Shown here piece by piece: positions 11,775 through 21,015 of a DNA stretch of 64,000 nucleotides. The stretch spans positions 62,001-126,000 of the forward strand of contig BPQB01000069.1 in assembly GCA_019973155.2 (NCBI GenBank). The letters run 5' to 3'. The notes beneath the pieces were generated by a model, which was not told the origin of the DNA, did no database searches, and worked only from the letters and a program-made list of their open reading frames with translations. Positions within the stretch are counted from its first letter, which is position 1; each line of letters starts with the position of its first letter. This DNA is from Phanerochaete sordida (lineage: Eukaryota > Basidiomycota > Agaricomycetes > Polyporales > Phanerochaetaceae). Made by a program: the position numbers and the translations under genes.

Positions 11775-11782
11775 AGATGCAG
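11775..11782 (+). repeat. Target-site duplication, left
   Basis: AGATGCAG flanks the element here and again at 21008-21015. Eight bases (nine if the following G is counted) fits the 8-11 bp range typical of Mutator-like elements. Confidence 0.7.
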
Positions 11783-11815
11783 GATGGTATCCAAAGTTAC
11801 TTGAAGGGCTAACTT
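11783..11815 (+). repeat. Left terminal inverted repeat
   Basis: Begins GATGGTATCCAAAGTTACTT and aligns without gaps to the reverse complement of 20975-21007, with 25 of 33 positions identical. Confidence 0.7.
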
Positions 11816-12781
11816 CCCGTAACTTTGGTATACCAAAGTAACGGTACGTTACTTACCGTAACGTTCTGTTACTTCCCGCAAATCCCAACGCTTGTAAGTT
11901 AATTTGACCGATGCTAACGTGGCTCAATTACCTTAGAACAACACCAACATGGCTCAGGTGCCCTAGAAGTCGGTCAGTAACGTCCTAGACGTCCTCCGCC
12001 AAGTGCCAGAGGCGGCTGCAACTGCACATTCCATATTGGGACAGCGAAGCGCCTGTTGCTGTCGCGTCAGTCTGCGCCGCCCTATGTCTACCATCCGCCG
12101 CGAGCGACGTGCACGGGTAGGTTTGTATATCCCCGGGCGCTCTTGTAGTGACGAAAGCTGATCTATTCCTGACAGAGAAGGCCGCGCTCTGGCCGCTGTT
12201 ATGGTTGCAGGTGCGTGTCCACGAGTGCTGCAGATCGTCACTACGGTCACGCTCATCGCAGGCATACAGAGAAGGGGAGAATATCGTAGCAATAGCAAGA
12301 TGGTACTGTATGTACATCCATAAATGTGGTCTGAAACCTTTGCATGGACCTGCCTGTGAGTAACCGTCCAACAGTAAGTTCCCGCACGCACAAGTTACAT
12401 CACGTTAGCTCCTGCAAGCGAAAGTTATATCACGTTAGTGCCCGTCACTTGCCGCGGGCGACCGCTAGCAAGTGTTGCTTTGCGCAGTCACCATTTTCTG
12501 CTTCGAGAAACGCGCATATAGCTGACTGTGGCGGGCAAGCGACAGCTGCGAGGCCTGACCGCTGTCAGCCACCCGGCTGACTTAGTTTTAGGCTTGATGC
12601 GACCCATAATGGGTATTTATCTGGTAAAACCTGGCCGCCTCCTCGAATCGCGGTGCAAACATGCCAAAAACCGGTGAGATTAGTACTCAAAACATATCTC
12701 ATTTGCTTCCGCTAATCGGCGGCTCCGAGGTCATCTGCTGCTTTTCTTGTCCTCGACGACGACGTTTCAGGTGCCTGGCAC
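11816..12781. repeat. Left subterminal repeat region
   Basis: Contains clustered GTTAC/GTAAC and GTTA motifs at about 11818-11960 and again at about 12365-12450 (ACAAGTTACATCACGTTAGC and AAAGTTATATCACGTTAG). These resemble transposase-binding arrays of Mutator-like and Zisupton-like elements. The promoter of the transposase gene must also lie here; no convincing TATA box was picked. Confidence 0.55.
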
Positions 12782-15700
12782 ATGATACGACGCTTCCTGG
12801 GGAAGCTCCTGGGCTTGGCTGACGTCGCCCGCCCGGCGAAGGACCCTGCAGCCGCTCACGAGAGCTCTCGAAAGCGTAAGAGCCGCGGTCTCCACCGTCG
12901 TTCGAAGAAAAAAGGTGCATACACTCTCCTGCCTCTGTGCGGTTCAGTCCCTTATTTTTTGGACTCTATAGATCTTCCAGACGGCTCTCAGATACACGGG
13001 GCGAAGGGTAGAGAGGGAGAGGTGCGAGGAGACGAATTTGCCCAGCGCAGCAGGGAGTCGCACAGCGGTGCGTCTGATAGCTACTCTTTGACGAATGACC
13101 CTCTCACAAGCGCACCTTTCAGCAGGTCATTTGAATGCTCACACTGAGTCAAATCGCCGTCAAGATGGAGAGGAAGAAGTGAGGACCAGAGGACGCCAAG
13201 TGTCTCGGAGTCGAGGCCGTTCTAGCGGTGCGTACAGCTACCTCTCGCTCGTCATGAAAGTGCTAATATCATCTAGACCGCCGGCGGACCCCCGAGACGC
13301 CATGCTCGTCCTCCGAGTCGCGTTCCCGCTCTCGCCACCGCCATCTTTCCCGCTCTCGTGCTCGCTACCGTCATGCAGGTCATGCAGCAAGCAGGTCTCG
13401 ATCCAGACGAGAATCTCGGCCACGAAAACGTCGTTCCCACCGCTACCACTCTCGCGATGCGGCAGGAGGGCGCAGAGGGCGCCCTCGAGACCGAGATACC
13501 AAGCGCAAGCACCATCGCTCACGATCCAGCTCGTGCGATTGCCGTGACCGTCGGCATCCGAGTCGTCATCAACATCACCGGGGCCGATCTCATGCACACC
13601 ACCGCCGCCGCTCCGCGTCCCCGATGCGCTCAAGACGACGATCCAGATCGACCTCGTACCATGCTACGAGACGGTACAGGCGCGACCGCTCGTCGTCGTC
13701 GTCTTGCACGCGATATAGTCGATCCTCAGACTCTTCCGGGCGGTCAGATTCCTCCAGTGCAGCCTCGAAGGCTCAGTTTGGCGCGGATAACCGTAGCCAA
13801 GATGCTGTAGACAAATGTAAGATCAAATAGCTTCCCCTGAGGGTCGCCTATGCTCATCAACGCTTTCCGCTAGCCTCTCGCGACTACCCCGATGGCGACG
13901 TCGAGTGGGAGGTCCCAGACGCACCTGAGCACCGCGTACATGATCCCATGTGGCGTCGGAACAAGTGGGTGTGGCGCAACAACGGACATACGCATTACAA
14001 GGGCTACAAGAACGCAAAGAAGACCGTCTGCTGCGGGGTCATCATGTGTCGCAAGTGCAATACGCTCATCCGTCCCCTAACGCAGACTGCTTCCCGGAAT
14101 GAGCAGCTCACGATGTTCTGCACAAACATGCACTGTCTCCATGCGGACCTGATCCACATCCCATGCAAGGCGCACTCTATCCGCTACGAGATCACACGAG
14201 ACGGCCAAACGTTCCTTCGTTGGGTGCACATCGGCAAGCATGACCACCCTCGCCCTCCTGGCGGTAACCTCAGCAAAAACGAGTACAACGCTGTCGTCGC
14301 TGAAGTCAAGCGTCGTCCTGAGGCAACGGCACACCAATATCGCGCCGGTAGCGACCTCCCTGGCTCCCGTCCTCTCGCAGAAATCAACCCTACCCTTGCC
14401 AACCCTCGACGAGCGCAGTATGTGACCGCCCAGGTCAAGGACGATCAGGGCATACCGCGCCCTTCAGGTCGAAAATCACGCAACGGAGCGTTCTCGTTGT
14501 TCGAAGCTGTCGAGGCATTGGAGCAGGAGATCAACGCGTCCGTTGTTGTTGACTCCAGTGTAACACGCCCTTCGTTCATATCAATCCAGACTAAGTTTAT
14601 GCGGCTTGCGCTCGACGAAGCTATTGCAGACTGGTCTCGGACGTTGCCTGGTGAGGCTCTGGCGAGTCGACATGGATTTGTCAGCGACGGAGACCATACC
14701 TTCTTCAACAAAGGCACTCTGCTCGCGACATGCGTGTTCAATGTCACGCTTAATGCATGGGTCCCTGTCCTGTACACCTGGGTTCTACATCTCGATACCG
14801 ACCACTACCTCGCCCACTTCCGCACCCTCAACAAGCAAATTGTCGAAGCCGCAGGTGACAAGTTCGATCCAGAGATGCTATCTGCGGTATGTGTCTGTGG
14901 CTCTTCTCCTACAGAACCGAGGCTCATCATGTACAGGTGTTCGATTTTTCGCAGGCGCAGCTTGCAGCCCACAAGGAGGCGTTTGCAGAGACCATGATGG
15001 CGCGTCTCCCTGGAAGCGCTCTGCTGTCCGAGCCTGCCTACAAAGCACAGATGGAAGCCTTCAGAGAGCAAGCCGGACGGTTCAGCAAAGGATGTGAGGT
15101 CCACTTCCGGTCCTCTGTCCAGCGTGTCAAGCAAGACTCTGCGCTCGTACCTGTTGAGCATGTGCAACTGCTCGACAACTTCGTTCATCTCGCCCTCAGC
15201 AGCAAGACATCGGCTGAGGAGTTTGATGAAGCGGTCTCCGACCTCAAGACCCGCTTCCCTCATCTCCAGAACTGGTTGAAATGGTGGCTTCGACCGCAAA
15301 TCGCACCTCTTATCTTCCCTGCCCGCCAGACGATGGACGACTCTCTTGCAAAGAAGATCCCGAAGACCTCGAACCCGATTGAGACCCAACACTCCTTGCT
15401 ACACCATGCCTGCGGCAGAGACCACGATCCGCTGTCTGGCTTGAAAGAAATCAATCGGTACGCAGAGACATTCCGGCTTCAATACGAGGCGATTCGAGGT
15501 GAGTTCCACCATCTAATATGCACGATCCTCGTGTTCTGATATCGTACAGATGGTCACATACAGCCGTCTAATCGCATTCAGGCTGCGCGACCTAAGACGC
15601 AGAGGAATTACGGCGAGAATGACGGCAAGCCTCCGCAGACAATGCTCAGCCTTACCGCTGCAGACAGCCGACTGCAAGCTCTCAAATCACGCGAGGCCGC

Positions 15701-18700
15701 AGAGAAGGCCTTGACCCGCCCGGGACTATCCTCCCGTGACTTGTACACGCGCGATTTTGGGATGCGTCCATTCATCTCCTATCGATTTCACGAGCACTCG
15801 TGTTACATCGACACCGCGCAGGAGCTCTGGTTCCGTGCGTACGTTCTATGGGACCCTACGTTTCGCGAAACCTTCCTCGCGATTGTGGTCGCCAAGGACA
15901 GCGCCCTCTTCTCGCTTTTCTGGAGCTACAATCAGCGCCTTCGTCGTATCGCAAACGGTGACGGCGTACATGATGCTACACCTGGAGAGGACGAGGTCGC
16001 TCCCGCTCAGCAGAACGCTGCTGTAGACAGCACTCGAGGACGTGAAGGTCGCGGAGGGCGGAAGCGTGGGCGCGGGCGTGGACGTGGGCGCGGACGTGGG
16101 CGAGGACGTGGGCGAGGCCGTGGGCATGGGCGAGGAGGCGGCTCAGGAGGCCTTCCCTCTGAAAGCGAAAGCGATAGTAACGAGGACGACGAGCTGGATG
16201 ATCCCCCAAGGCCGCGGCCGGCTCGCGTTCTGCGATCCGCTAAGGGCAAGGCCGTTCTGCGCACGCTTGACGCTACCGATGAGAGCATCCGGCACGTCCT
16301 CGACTCACTTCGAACGTCCCAGCAAGCGGCGACGCATGCCATCACGCAGGAATGGTCCCTGTACAAGCTTGGAGAGGACGGTCAGAGTACACGATGGATG
16401 ACGAGGGCAATCATGGTGCGTACCTGGTCCGAACAGCGCCTGCAGGTCGATATTGACACGGTGATCTAAAGGATAACACGAACGACTCTACGCGGGCACT
16501 ATTTGGCCTTCAGCACCACGCCCTACTCCGCTGCAAGTTCGGCCACCTCCATGTTGCCCTACGGACAGATCCTGTCCCCTTCTTCTCGGTCGGACGTCGC
16601 GATATTGAGCGTGCTCGCGCTGCTGCAGAGGACGAGTCAGATGGCGGGGTAGCCTTCGATCTCGGCCTCTTCTTCACGCATCTACTGCCGCGTCAGGGGA
16701 AAAAAACCAGCATCGACTCCTTCGCATATGGAGCAGGACCGAAACTCACCGATCTATCCCTCACCGCGCAGTGCCCCCATCGTCCTAGCTGCTTAGAAGA
16801 TGCCGACCTCTGCGCAGTTCAGACAGCATGGCCCCAAATTCTTCATGTCGAGCCAGAGCCAGGCGCGCTGTCTGGTGACGACGAGACATCGAACTGGGAC
16901 CTCTTGGCGACTTCTGAGACCTTCATGATCAGCTCGAGATCTACGCGGCGGCAGAACGAGAGGCGGAACGCGGCCAACGGAGAGCTGACCGTCGCGCCCG
17001 AAGGAGTGTCGTACCGGCTAGTCGGGCGACAACTGCTGAACAAAAAGGCCTCTCACTTCACCGCCCAACTTCTCATCGAAGGACGCACCTACCTCTACGA
17101 CGATCTGGCCAATCAGGGGGTCCTGGTCGATATCGGAGGTGTGAACGCCATTCTAGAGCCGCGTGAAGACGCCACATTCTGGGTGTATCACAGGGAGACC
17201 AACAATTTCGTGAGTTAATATCATTTAGCCAAGTGATATCAAGGCTCACCCTGAGCAGGTGACCGAGCAGGATATTGCCTATCTTCGCTCGACACCGTCC
17301 GACGAGCTATTCCGTCGTCAGGATGCGCCTATTGTGATCAGAGACACACCTGCTTCCTCAAACAGGGACGTATCGACGTCTGACGCCGCTCCTGTCCGCG
17401 CACCCAAAAGGCCCGCCATATCAAAAGCCCCAGAACGACCAGGAGAGTCTGCGATCCGCAAGGCTGCGGATGACGATTCTCGCTTCGCCGATCTGCTCCG
17501 TGAATTTCATGAGCATCCTGATCAGATTGAGGAGCAGAGAGCGAAGCGCACCATCAACTGCGCCGTCTGCCATGCTACCGGAGCTGGAGGCAGCGTGCTG
17601 CATACGATCCAGTGCTCCAAGTGTCACCTTTGCTCGCACTGGAAGTGCATCAAGGAGCAGTTTGGACCGGACCAGCTCGATCTTGTCGATCTCGCCGAGT
17701 GGAAGTGTCCAGGGCGATGCAATAGCAGTGTCGCTCTTTGGAAAGACAGGCTGTAAGTGTTGATCCTCTAATATACGCCAGATGACTTACCGAATTGTCA
17801 GGGTTGGCCAGTTCATCTTTTACCACACAGTGTCGCACGGGAAGATCTACGCGGCACGAATCACTGCAAGAGTTGAGAACCATGCGATTCTGGAGTGGTT
17901 CGAGGGAAACATCTACGCGAAATCGCAGAAGCCCAAGGATCGCACCAGGAGAGTTCCTATTCATCAATGTGCCGCCGCTATGGCCGCGCAGGGCGAGGGA
18001 TATCCTGGAGAGCAGGTAAAATGTCATGGTACCCTGCATATAGTATATCGAGACTCACAGTCACTTGACGTGCAGTTCGGCAAACTTCTGTGGCCCATCC
18101 GCTTCTGTGACGAGGCTCTGGACGCTCATGGATATGCGAATCCTGGTCTGCAAGGTCAGCTCGAGGGAGCATTCCATGCGATCCTGGAGATTCTCACCGG
18201 GAGGCGCGAACATCTCCTCATGCAGCGCTTCGAGATGTGCGTCTTGGGTGAGGGCCTCGCTTCGCAGAACCGGATCGTGCGATGGTACGGCCTCTACAAG
18301 ATCTCGATCCTTGACGGCGATGAGTCGCTTGTTGGGCCACTTCTCCTCGACCTCACGCAGCGCCTTGAGCGTATTCCCTCTTCAGAGAGGATCTACGGGC
18401 CTCGAGGAAGTACAGGCGACCTTGTTAGTGGCCCAGGGAAGCTGCTATTCCGGCTGGTGATCCTGCGGGAGTACCTGGGTCGGCGGCCATGTGACGACGA
18501 CGAGATCTATCGACTGGTCGATCGGACCGTGGACTGGAAGGCCTTTGAGAAGATTAGCAAAGCAGGTACCTCAAACCATGTCAGCAAAGACGTACCGATG
18601 GACGACGATACTGGTGCGTTCCTGGGATGACGGGTGTAGGAATCCGAGCTAATTGGACTTATCAGAGACGGAACCATGGACTGAACCGTCTTACCGTATC

Positions 18701-19114
18701 CTGCGAAGACTCACCTCCCCAGAACAAGCCTTAGCAGCGCGCCTTGGCTGGCAGGAGACGACCCGCGAAGTCGATGATAAGGCGTCGGCGCATCCACTCA
18801 TTCCCAGTGCAGAGACGGTGCAGGTCGACAAGAAGGCCAAGTATTCCCTACCAGAGAGCGAGCCGTCAGCGTACGTGATGGTCACGGACGACTCACCTCC
18901 GCATGCATGGCCTGTTTCGCTATCGCAGGGGCTGAGCGGCGGTCCGGCATACACTCCTGGGGGACTCGACGCGGAGATCGCTGTCACACAGCGTCCTCGG
19001 CCAAGGCCCAAGCCAGTGGTGAAGAGAAAGCCCCAGGGTCCCGCAAGTGACGAGCCAGTCGCCAAAAGGCTTCGTAGCCAAGCGGGCGAAGGAACTGCTG
19101 GCGTGTCAGGATGA
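12782..19114 (+). CDS. Transposase polyprotein: RS leader, GCM zinc domain, MULE DDE, USP-like protease, PHD, BAH-like
   Basis: Eleven exons join in frame to about 1,930 residues. Residues 1-110 are basic. Residues 112-290 are RS/RH-rich, like splicing-factor RS domains. At 292-410 lies a GCM/WRKY-GCM1-type zinc domain (HTHYKGYKN, CCGVIMCRKC, HIGKHDHP). The DDE core shows SDGDHTFF (about 560), FDFSQAQ (about 632) and NPIETQH (about 773). A ubiquitin-specific-protease-like module follows: Cys box HSCYIDTAQELW (about 897), an RG repeat (about 980-1018), LF..L...C..GH, and His box HFTAQLL with YLYDDL (about 1300). A PHD finger (CAVC...CSKCHLCSHWKC...CPGRC, about 1452-1505) and a BAH/Tudor-like barrel (VGQFIFYH, ARITARVE, LEWFEGN) come next. 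The tail is rich in Pro, Lys and Arg. No stop or frameshift was found. Zinc-domain and DDE calls are firm; protease activity and the barrel are inference. Confidence 0.8.
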
Positions 19115-19704
19115 CGAGTAGTGCTGAGTTCAACACTTTCCTATTTCGTCCATTGCCCAGGTGGCGTCTTTGTCGCTGTTTGGTGCCGTCGAGGGACCGA
19201 AGCATGCGCGGCGAGGCCTATTCTCCCGTATGTACCAAGTATTCTCAGCTACGATGTATAGATGCGCACAATTTGTGATACATACCTGCATGATCCTTAG
19301 TGGAAGCATTCGACGAGAGTGCCGTTGAATGCTTCCATGATGTCATCGTGACTCCTGGCACCGCGGACCCGGTGAACCATCGACTGCATCGACCGCCGCT
19401 CGCTGTGCAGCTCACGTTCCTGCGCGATTAGAGCAATTCGAGCTGGTGGCTGCTAGTACACGTCAAGGAACGTTACAAAACGTTACAAAACGCTAGCCGA
19501 AGTAACTTGAAGTTAGCTCAAGTTAAGTCACGTTCGCTCACGTTAGCAAACGTTAACTCAAGTAACGTCAAGTTATGCACAGTAACAGGTGGCATGGGCC
19601 GTGCTTTGGATGTATTAGCAGTGTGTACGGCATGCGACAGTACTCTAACCGTTCACCTGGCATGCTCTTGTCCACATAGCGAGGAGGCACCTCAGCACAA
19701 CGCT
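19115..19704. repeat. Right internal subterminal repeat array
   Basis: About 19455-19590 is packed with ACGTTA, AAGTTA and AAGTAAC motifs such as GGAACGTTACAAAACGTTAC and TCAAGTTAAGTCACGTTCGC. The array resembles the extreme right end, although 1.4 kb of captured DNA separates them. No gene is seen between the transposase stop and the captured fragment. Confidence 0.55.
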
Positions 19705-20790
19705 CGTCTTTGTCAGGATCGGCATCCACTCGGACGTGCCCCACGCGCCCGTCACCTTGGACCCGAATGCCTGCCTCATGCCCACCGCAGTGGTGTGGAC
19801 ACCTTTCCCGCGCGCGGCGTGCAAGATCTGCCGTCGCGTCAGCGGTCCGGTAGCTGCGCCCGCCAGTAAAACCGCTACTCACGTGCTCAACAAAATATTT
19901 CGACACCGCATACCCCTGTCCTGCCGCGCCTTCCGTGTCGGACAGCAGCTGCTCGGGCACCGGCCTCTTGCCAGCGTCTCACCTACTCGCGAGACCGACG
20001 CTCGACGTGACGAGCAGGCGCACAAGCCGCGGCGCGGCGGCAGCGACGTCGACGAGTCCGAGTCGGCGCACTCCCGATATGGTCCTCGAACGACTGCAGT
20101 GCGAGGTTGAAGTTGACGGTCCATGCGTTGTGGATGACATGTGTGATCGTGCCGAGCACCTCAGCGTACTGCATGTCGTCGAGCCCAAACTTGTCCGGAG
20201 TGACTTCGCCCGCTAGTGAGACGAGCCGCGGGTCGTCGAGCGCATCTTCCGGAAGGCCTCGCTCGCGGAACGCGGCCTTCTCGCGTGCACGCGGCTCGGC
20301 AGACGCGGAGGGGCGATTCAGCGTGTATATGCGGGCGACGCGTGGCTCGGCGAGCAGGTACATGAGGATTTGTGATCCGATATTGCTGGTCGAGGCCGTG
20401 AGGAGGACGACACGCTCGCCTTCGTCGGACCGTGCGACGCCTTTGCCTGCGCGCGCGGCGGGCAGGTCCTCGGTGTACTTGGCGATGAGCGCGCGCACGG
20501 CGACCGTGGGGTCGCGCGCGTGCGTCGCCGTGGAAGGGTCAACGATGGTGGCGAAGGCAGCAGCGAGGTCCGCGATCGTCAGGTGCTCGAAGACAATGTT
20601 CGCAGAGATGCGCTGGGTGGGCTGACGCACACGCAGGATGTCCGCGGTGCGCAGCGTGCCGATGATACGGTTGCGCAAGAATGTCGCGCTGAGGCTGCGG
20701 GCGCATCAGTCGTGGGCGTAGTATATGCGGACAGCGCGGTGAACACACCTGTCGAAGCCTTGCTGGAAGAGGTCGGCCGCCGGCGCCGGG
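19705..20790 (-). pseudogene. Captured NRPS-like (adenylate-forming) reductase fragment: carrier and reductase domains
   Basis: Read on the minus strand, it begins with the end of a carrier domain (LFQQGFDSLSATF, with the phosphopantetheine serine, then ISANIVFEHLTIADLA). A thioester-reductase-type NAD(P) domain follows: LLTASTSNIGSQIL, YTLNRPS, HVIHNAWTVNFNLALQSF, TSSVGLAS, GYAVSKYFVEHV (YxxxK) and GAWGTSEWMPILTKT. The Rossmann glycines of GSTGxxG are partly replaced (ASTSNIG). The frame breaks after FEDHI, and the last block lies in another frame. The adenylation domain is absent. It lies between two subterminal arrays of the transposon, so it looks like host gene DNA captured by the element. 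Type I/III carboxylic acid reductases of this kind are common in Agaricomycetes. Confidence 0.7.
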
Positions 20791-20879
20791 TGCGATGGCC
20801 TGTCCGTGCAAAACGAGGCTCTGTGTGACGTTCGGTAGCATAGAGATATAAATTAGATCATAGAAGGTGCTGCGACATA

Positions 20880-21007
20880 GGAGGAGATGACCGCGGGGCT
20901 CACGTTAGGTCAAGTTAATTTGGTTCACGTTAGCTCCGTTGGCGCCTAATCTCAGGCGCGGGACAAGTTAGCCAAAGTTAGCACCCCAAGTTACTTTGGG
21001 CAGCCTC
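20880..21007. repeat. Right subterminal array and terminal inverted repeat
   Basis: CACGTTAG, AAGTTAATTTGGTTCACGTTAG, ACAAGTTAGCCAAAGTTAGC and CCCCAAGTTACTTTGGGC mirror the left end. The last 33 bases form the terminal inverted repeat. Confidence 0.65.
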
Positions 21008-21015
21008 AGATGCAG
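21008..21015 (+). repeat. Target-site duplication, right
   Basis: AGATGCAG, identical to 11775-11782. Confidence 0.7.

Follow-up and report, generated by a model that had tools for sequence, protein, structure and literature searches.

The window analysed here (64,000 nucleotides of Phanerochaete sordida, C69:62001-126000) contains, at 11783-21007, a DNA transposon whose copies on other contigs of the same genome are collinear with it and end within 2 bases of both its ends (BLASTN). We consider it, with a probability of about 0.6, to be an autonomous, recently active cut-and-paste transposon resembling the Mutator-like elements (MULEs), which encodes one multi-domain transposase with a predicted USP protease. 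The transposase is a single intact open reading frame (ORF) under purifying selection, and its central part is predicted, with strong support from the modelled fold of a homologue and from the catalytic triad, to be a cysteine protease of the USP type. The element is called MULE-like because the Pfam MULE profile is not matched.

Ends, copies and gene structure

The genome searched for copies comprises 40.8 Mb in 222 contigs. BLASTN alignments to C60 and C86 stop at 11781-11783 on the left, and those to C60 and C104 stop at 21008 on the right. The C60 copy is full length, its main block aligning over 7822 columns at 94 % identity; C86 and C104 hold two element halves, each ending at a contig end (BLASTN), and DNA searches with the element ends revealed further 5' ends on C121 and C194 and further 3' ends on C96 and C39, all four cut by contig ends. 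The window copy carries the 8-bp target-site duplication (TSD) AGATGCAG on both flanks, and matching 9-mers, on which the pairing of the other pieces is based, are ACAGGGTAG for C86/C104, CAACGTGAG for C121/C96 and GAGTCATAG for C194/C39. The search for same-ended copies proposed in the earlier note yields at least five, the window copy included, four of them with TSDs (9 bp in three, 8 bp in one). All four TSDs end in AG (C60 has none to read), a possible target preference.

An apparently intact element delimited by terminal repeats and an 8-bp duplication had been described in that note. Both limits hold: AGATGCAG lies at 11775-11782 and 21008-21015 in agreement with the copy ends, and the terminal inverted repeats (TIRs) of 31 bp have 23 matching bases. 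The intactness is borne out by the shared ends, the TSDs, the copies and the ORF under purifying selection. With both strands counted, the element contains 27 A[AC]GTTA motifs, always in its non-coding ends (none in 12451-19450 or 19601-20890), and the remaining 54,775 bases of the window contain 15. Within the arrays, the motifs are often about 10 bp apart. Judged from their position, these arrays are candidate transposase binding sites.

The exons spanning 12782-19114 had been said to join without stop or frameshift, and our reading confirms this, giving 1915 amino acids (aa). Intron 8 is 17210-17258 (49 nt), which fits the '..TEQD..' reading of homologues P0003 and P0004, with GT and AG both kept in C60 and C104; on these grounds it replaced a 19-nt version (17210-17228). 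The counts of non-synonymous over synonymous change (dN/dS) were made with the 19-nt model, which has 10 codons more than the 1915-aa model. Against C60, 1921 comparable codons contain 142.5 synonymous and 94.5 non-synonymous differences (dN/dS 0.20) and no stops, the exon indels are 9 and 12 nt long, and GT-AG is kept in 11/11 introns. The DDE block contributes 20 synonymous and no non-synonymous differences, and dN/dS is 0.13 for USP exon 8, 0.23 for the PHD finger, 0.19 for the C-terminus and 1.16 for the RG repeat. Comparison with C104 gives 0.19 over 1278 codons, with 7 synonymous and no non-synonymous differences in the DDE block and again 0.13 in exon 8; a 40-nt exon gap in this copy is the contig start, the remaining exon indels being 12 nt. 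For C86, dN/dS is 0.27 over 439 codons.

Table 1. Coordinates of the element and its features in the window.
Feature	Position	Strand	Basis
TSD, left copy AGATGCAG	11775-11782	.	flank comparison
5' TIR	11783-11813	+	23/31 bases match 3' end
5' subterminal region, 12 A[AC]GTTA motifs, either strand	11783-12450	.	motif count
Transposase gene, 12 exons, 1915 aa	12782-19114	+	exon joining, alignment, splice sites in copies
Exons 1-6	12782-12914, 12972-13067, 13123-13227, 13277-13816, 13874-14886, 14937-15498	+	
Exons 7-12	15550-16415, 16472-17209, 17259-17752, 17802-18015, 18076-18613, 18666-19114	+	
RS-rich stretch, ~residues 95-290	13123-13816	+	sequence
GCM-type zinc domain	13876-14300	+	Pfam GCM, profile comparison with 1odh
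DDE core: D563 (14686), D632 (14943), C682/H685 (15093/15102), E778 (15381)	14560-15498	+	homologue alignment, MULE comparison
Predicted USP-fold domain with inserted RG-rich linker: C901 (15801), H1300 (17054), D1315 (17099)	15780-17209	+	homologue alignment; fold from homologue P0013
RG-coding 12-nt minisatellite within the USP domain insert	16064-16135	+	repeat in sequence
PHD finger, ~residues 1451-1505	17556-17730	+	Pfam, profile comparison, homologue alignment
Small beta barrel, Tudor/SH3-like, weak match	17803-18015	+	structure model, fold search
Helical region (modelled to 18612) and basic tail	18076-19114	+	structure model, sequence
Array of 9 A[AC]GTTA motifs, directly 3' of gene	19451-19600	.	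motif count
Host reductase gene fragment (NAD_binding_4)	~19680-20823	-	Pfam E 1.4e-13, BLASTN
3' subterminal array, 6 A[AC]GTTA motifs	20891-21007	.	motif count
3' TIR	20977-21007	-	partner of 11783-11813 repeat
TSD, right copy AGATGCAG	21008-21015	.	flank comparison

DDE core and superfamily placement

The protein searches scored only about 8000 candidates sharing most words, so that all homologue counts are lower bounds. A first search (region 292-1100, RG repeat included) gave at least one homologue; a profile search gave at least 35, of which 33 carry fungal species names and are presumably all from Agaricomycetes; and a second search, started from the two remaining proteins, gave at least six, of which five were new. 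On C14, a divergent paralogue with a frame of 1596 aa starting at the GCM part has the same module order at 30-43 % identity by block (41 % in the alignment).

The DDE blocks SDGDH, FDFSQ and NPIETQ pointed out previously begin at residues 562, 631 and 775, and the alignment of 35 proteins supports them: the first Asp (D1) is Asp in 35/35, and the second Asp (D2) and the Glu are each present in 34/35. A C-x2-H motif before the Glu is a rule of MULE DDE cores; its Cys and His are present in 33/35 homologues, the rest being gaps as for D2 and Glu, and the DDE Glu of the family lies in a T-[ST]-N-x2-E pattern. When the DDE profile was compared with a combined alignment of MULEs from the same genome, none of 200 shuffles reached its score, and the alignment was in MULE register. 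The TSDs of 8-9 bp fit the MULE range of 8-10 bp (PMC5225508), and the TIR falls inside the 14-500 bp of a MULE survey, in which TIRs are often >100 bp (PMC6446971), yet is short for a MULE. The Mutator-like assignment is thus upheld by TSD, TIR, C-x2-H and register, and failed by the Pfam profile, which is a means of detection and not a character of the superfamily.

An origin of the DDE core in another superfamily (KDZ, Rehavkus, hAT or a new one) seems unlikely to us. It would explain the unmatched profile, and the survey table likewise gives TSDs of 9 bp and a PHD finger for Rehavkus (PMC6446971), while Zisupton TSDs are given as 8 bp (PMC12730594). However, C-x2-H, the T-[ST]-N-x2-E pattern and the MULE register are all present, and among the five copies TSDs of 9 bp prevail over the single one of 8 bp. 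KDZ, the one of these superfamilies that was compared, was rejected as the closest, as its hhalign score is no better than that of shuffles (62/200 reach it) and the 37 genome matches of PF18758, some of them pieces of one gene, include none on the window's contig.

Outside the placement of the core as MULE-like, seven distant relatives (P0034-P0040, ENA) bear on the age of the fusion. The USP Cys box, the His box, C-x2-H and TN-x2-E are readable in 7/7; the position of D1 depends on the alignment (in P0035, Glu in one and Asp in another), and the GCM part is missing from P0040 and mostly missing from P0035. These proteins suggest that the fusion of DDE and USP may predate the agaricomycete fungi. 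By eye, P0034, P0035, P0038 and P0039 have a different Cys/His cluster at their end.

USP-fold domain and accompanying modules

The USP-like Cys box and His box of the earlier note correspond to C901 and H1300, with D1315 as the putative third triad residue. The Cys column is occupied in 33/35 homologues, the remainder being gaps, and in homologues with letters at these positions the triad is kept as Cys in 33/33, His in 28/29 and Asp/Asn in 28/30; P0032 and P0033 lack the Cys box. A fold search with the predicted structure of homologue P0013 returned the USP fold, with USP30 at 18.8 and USP12 at 18.3, where rows less than 1 Z apart count as ties. Among 12 USP segments compared with Pfam, UCH_1 was found in one (E 0.01), ranking below DUF7713 (1/12, E 2.2e-4). 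In a phmmer search of exon 8 alone, no USP was among the seven PDB matches; the USP core extends past exon 8. The minisatellite in the insert is in frame, and exon 7 varies among copies by 12-nt indels.

Given the intact triad and the selection on exon 8, we expect the protease to be active on ubiquitin or SUMO. A deSUMOylase instead of a deubiquitinase would parallel the Ulp1 domains of other MULEs and of Ginger transposons; we regard this as rather unlikely, ubiquitin USPs fitting equally well in the tied fold-search rows. Inactive enzymes exist among USPs, and a catalytically dead domain could instead act as a scaffold, binding ubiquitin or SUMO and so bringing the transposase to repair sites or modified chromatin. 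The sole USP in the PDB sequence search is named 'Inactive ubiquitin carboxyl-terminal hydrolase 54' (although the title of its PDB entry has it bound to a diUb-PA probe), and a long low-complexity insert interrupts the domain. The conserved triad, the Cys and His boxes of the distant relatives and the dN/dS of exon 8 against both copies speak for the active protease, and make the scaffold quite improbable.

The GCM-like zinc domain is corroborated by a profile of 31 homologues (A3), which matches 1odh (GCM) at E 4e-15, and by a Cys ligand column that is C in 33/35 homologues and a gap in the remaining two; the Pfam GCM match (E 4.8e-5, 23.8 bits) is under the cut-off of 25. WRKY-GCM1 was reportedly treated by Babu et al. 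in 2006. The proposed PHD finger is found as well, with its Cys/His ligands present and PF00628 matched by 8/31 homologues. Its cysteine is seen in 14/35 homologues, namely all 13 proteins of at least 1400 aa and P0033, and many of those without it are short or marked partial. A Pfam scan of the spliced protein and its exons gave a weak PHD and other weak zinc matches, and missed DDE and USP. The profile searches suggested in the earlier note recovered GCM and PHD, and left Pfam MULE and UCH unmatched at the locus. Its BAH-like module was not recovered: BAH is absent among the fold-search matches listed for the C-terminal part, which is no exclusion. The RS-rich stretch is no feature of the family.

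Capture of host sequence does occur in this element, as indicated by the reductase fragment, and the PHD finger with the C-terminal part could in principle be such a passenger, two or more host genes having been misread as one. This is highly improbable, as the same module order recurs in the C14 paralogue and in 13 long single proteins from other species, and the splice junctions are retained in the copies wherever covered. The reductase fragment itself sits outside the transposase gene. Its relatives on other contigs are 64-79 % identical (matches of at least 400 bases), and the pieces in the copies are 90 % (C104) and 78 % (C60) identical to that of the window, the C60 piece being shorter and beginning at 19995. 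The latter value compares with 94 % for the C60 main block, which hints at a separate capture or faster decay. MULEs take up pieces of host genes (PMC5225508; PMC6446971), and the reductase capture fits this habit.

Several observations weigh against a MULE-like transposon with a USP protease. A comparison of the C60 flanks found no TSD. Pfam MULE (PF10551) and Pfam UCH (PF00443) have no match at the locus in single-sequence or genome scans, and neither matched any of the 31 homologues scanned at E 0.1; the 27 genome matches of UCH include none on the window's contig. The hhalign comparison of the DDE profile with MULEs reached a probability of only 3 % (E 0.015), no alignment came from the global run, and individual MULE frames of the same genome gave nothing significant; the DDE assignment is therefore carried by the shuffle test. 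Among PDB sequences, the best match of the USP profile was an unrelated sorting nexin (E 0.028), with a USP as far down as E 8.9. The P0013 model has a predicted TM-score (pTM) of 0.50, and domain placement is therefore uncertain. Against C104, the part of exon 7 that encodes the Cys box shows 5 synonymous and 9 non-synonymous differences (dN/dS 0.54) and the PHD finger 1 and 2 (dN/dS 0.53), so that selection on these parts is less clear than against C60.

Possible mechanism and relation to known systems

We propose that the GCM zinc domain would bind both the element ends and the subterminal arrays of A[AC]GTTA, and that the DDE core would excise the element and insert it at a target site cleaved with a stagger of 8-9 bp, as the ends and target duplications suggest. 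The USP would then free the transposase complex or chromatin of ubiquitin or a ubiquitin-like modifier, the PHD finger and barrel presumably holding the chromatin on which it acts, and the complex might thereby survive and insert in modified chromatin. Possible substrates are the transposase complex, histones and repair proteins; protection of the complex and deubiquitination of chromatin are about equally likely. The earlier idea of a MULE with a deubiquitinase-like, chromatin-reading C-terminus is partly supported, by the predicted USP fold and triad and by the PHD finger; its BAH module is not confirmed. Ulp1 and OTU domains have been suggested to act in transposition, e.g. on repair factors (Bao et al. 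2010, PMC2836005), and for Helitron-type VTDs there are hints that they protect proteins on which transposition depends (PMC9741609). Since ubiquitin-type proteases are reported on several unrelated transposons, ubiquitin or SUMO is suggested to limit transposition.

A wider reading is tentative and, on balance, doubtful: the element may belong to an old eukaryotic MULE-like lineage extending beyond fungi, with the USP integral and required, in which the fungal PHD finger and barrel would read histone marks and the USP strip ubiquitin. If true, this would be a self-contained machine that reads, erases and inserts, taking ubiquitin from e.g. histone H2B or repair factors. The protease shares one conserved protein with the transposase, their residues are separable (C901 and D563), and a genome holds several similar copies; loss of the USP cysteine would show directly whether a transposon needs its protease to move. 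Related joint proteins in many mushroom-forming fungi connect gene jumping with the ubiquitin system in a way that can be tested, and proteins now named hypothetical, uncharacterized, 'GCM domain' or 'PHD-type' would gain an identity.

With MULEs such as Muta1, the element has in common the 8-9-bp TSD, the DDE transposase and host gene uptake (PMC5225508), as well as a zinc domain, found in many MULE groups (PMC6446971). It differs in that it joins a predicted USP-fold protease, a PHD finger and a barrel in one protein, and is too distant for Pfam MULE. Additional domains in the table of the MULE survey are OTU (MuDR-6_HM), SET (one Phytophthora group) and PHD (the outgroup Rehavkus), but USP does not appear in that table (PMC6446971). 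Rehavkus shares the 9-bp TSD and the PHD finger, whereas its description there lists no USP, places a minisatellite before the 3' TIR and names arthropods and annelids as hosts (PMC6446971). No description of a USP-bearing MULE was recognised in the open-licence literature, judged by titles and the starts of abstracts.

Parallels for the protease are transposases of MULEs and Ginger1 that carry Ulp1 or OTU, in which a protease for ubiquitin-like proteins is likewise joined to the transposase, with a PHD finger in one Ginger1 (PMC2836005; MuDR-6_HM, PMC6446971); the protease class differs, that of our element being of predicted USP/C19 fold. The VTD deubiquitinases of Helentrons are also transposon-encoded and have members in Agaricomycetes, and they carry an Asp-x-His motif (PMC9741609). 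A VTD protease was rejected for our element, as 0/28 homologues having the His show Asp two places before it and the predicted fold is USP. A Trichomonas protein combining transposase_11 with Peptidase C19 also places C19 on a transposase, but is from a protist and has another transposase domain, and the passage describing it names neither GCM nor PHD (PMC2836005). Protease-bearing transposons are thus already known, and what appears to be new here is the putative union of a USP-fold protease, a PHD finger and a barrel in one MULE-like transposase.

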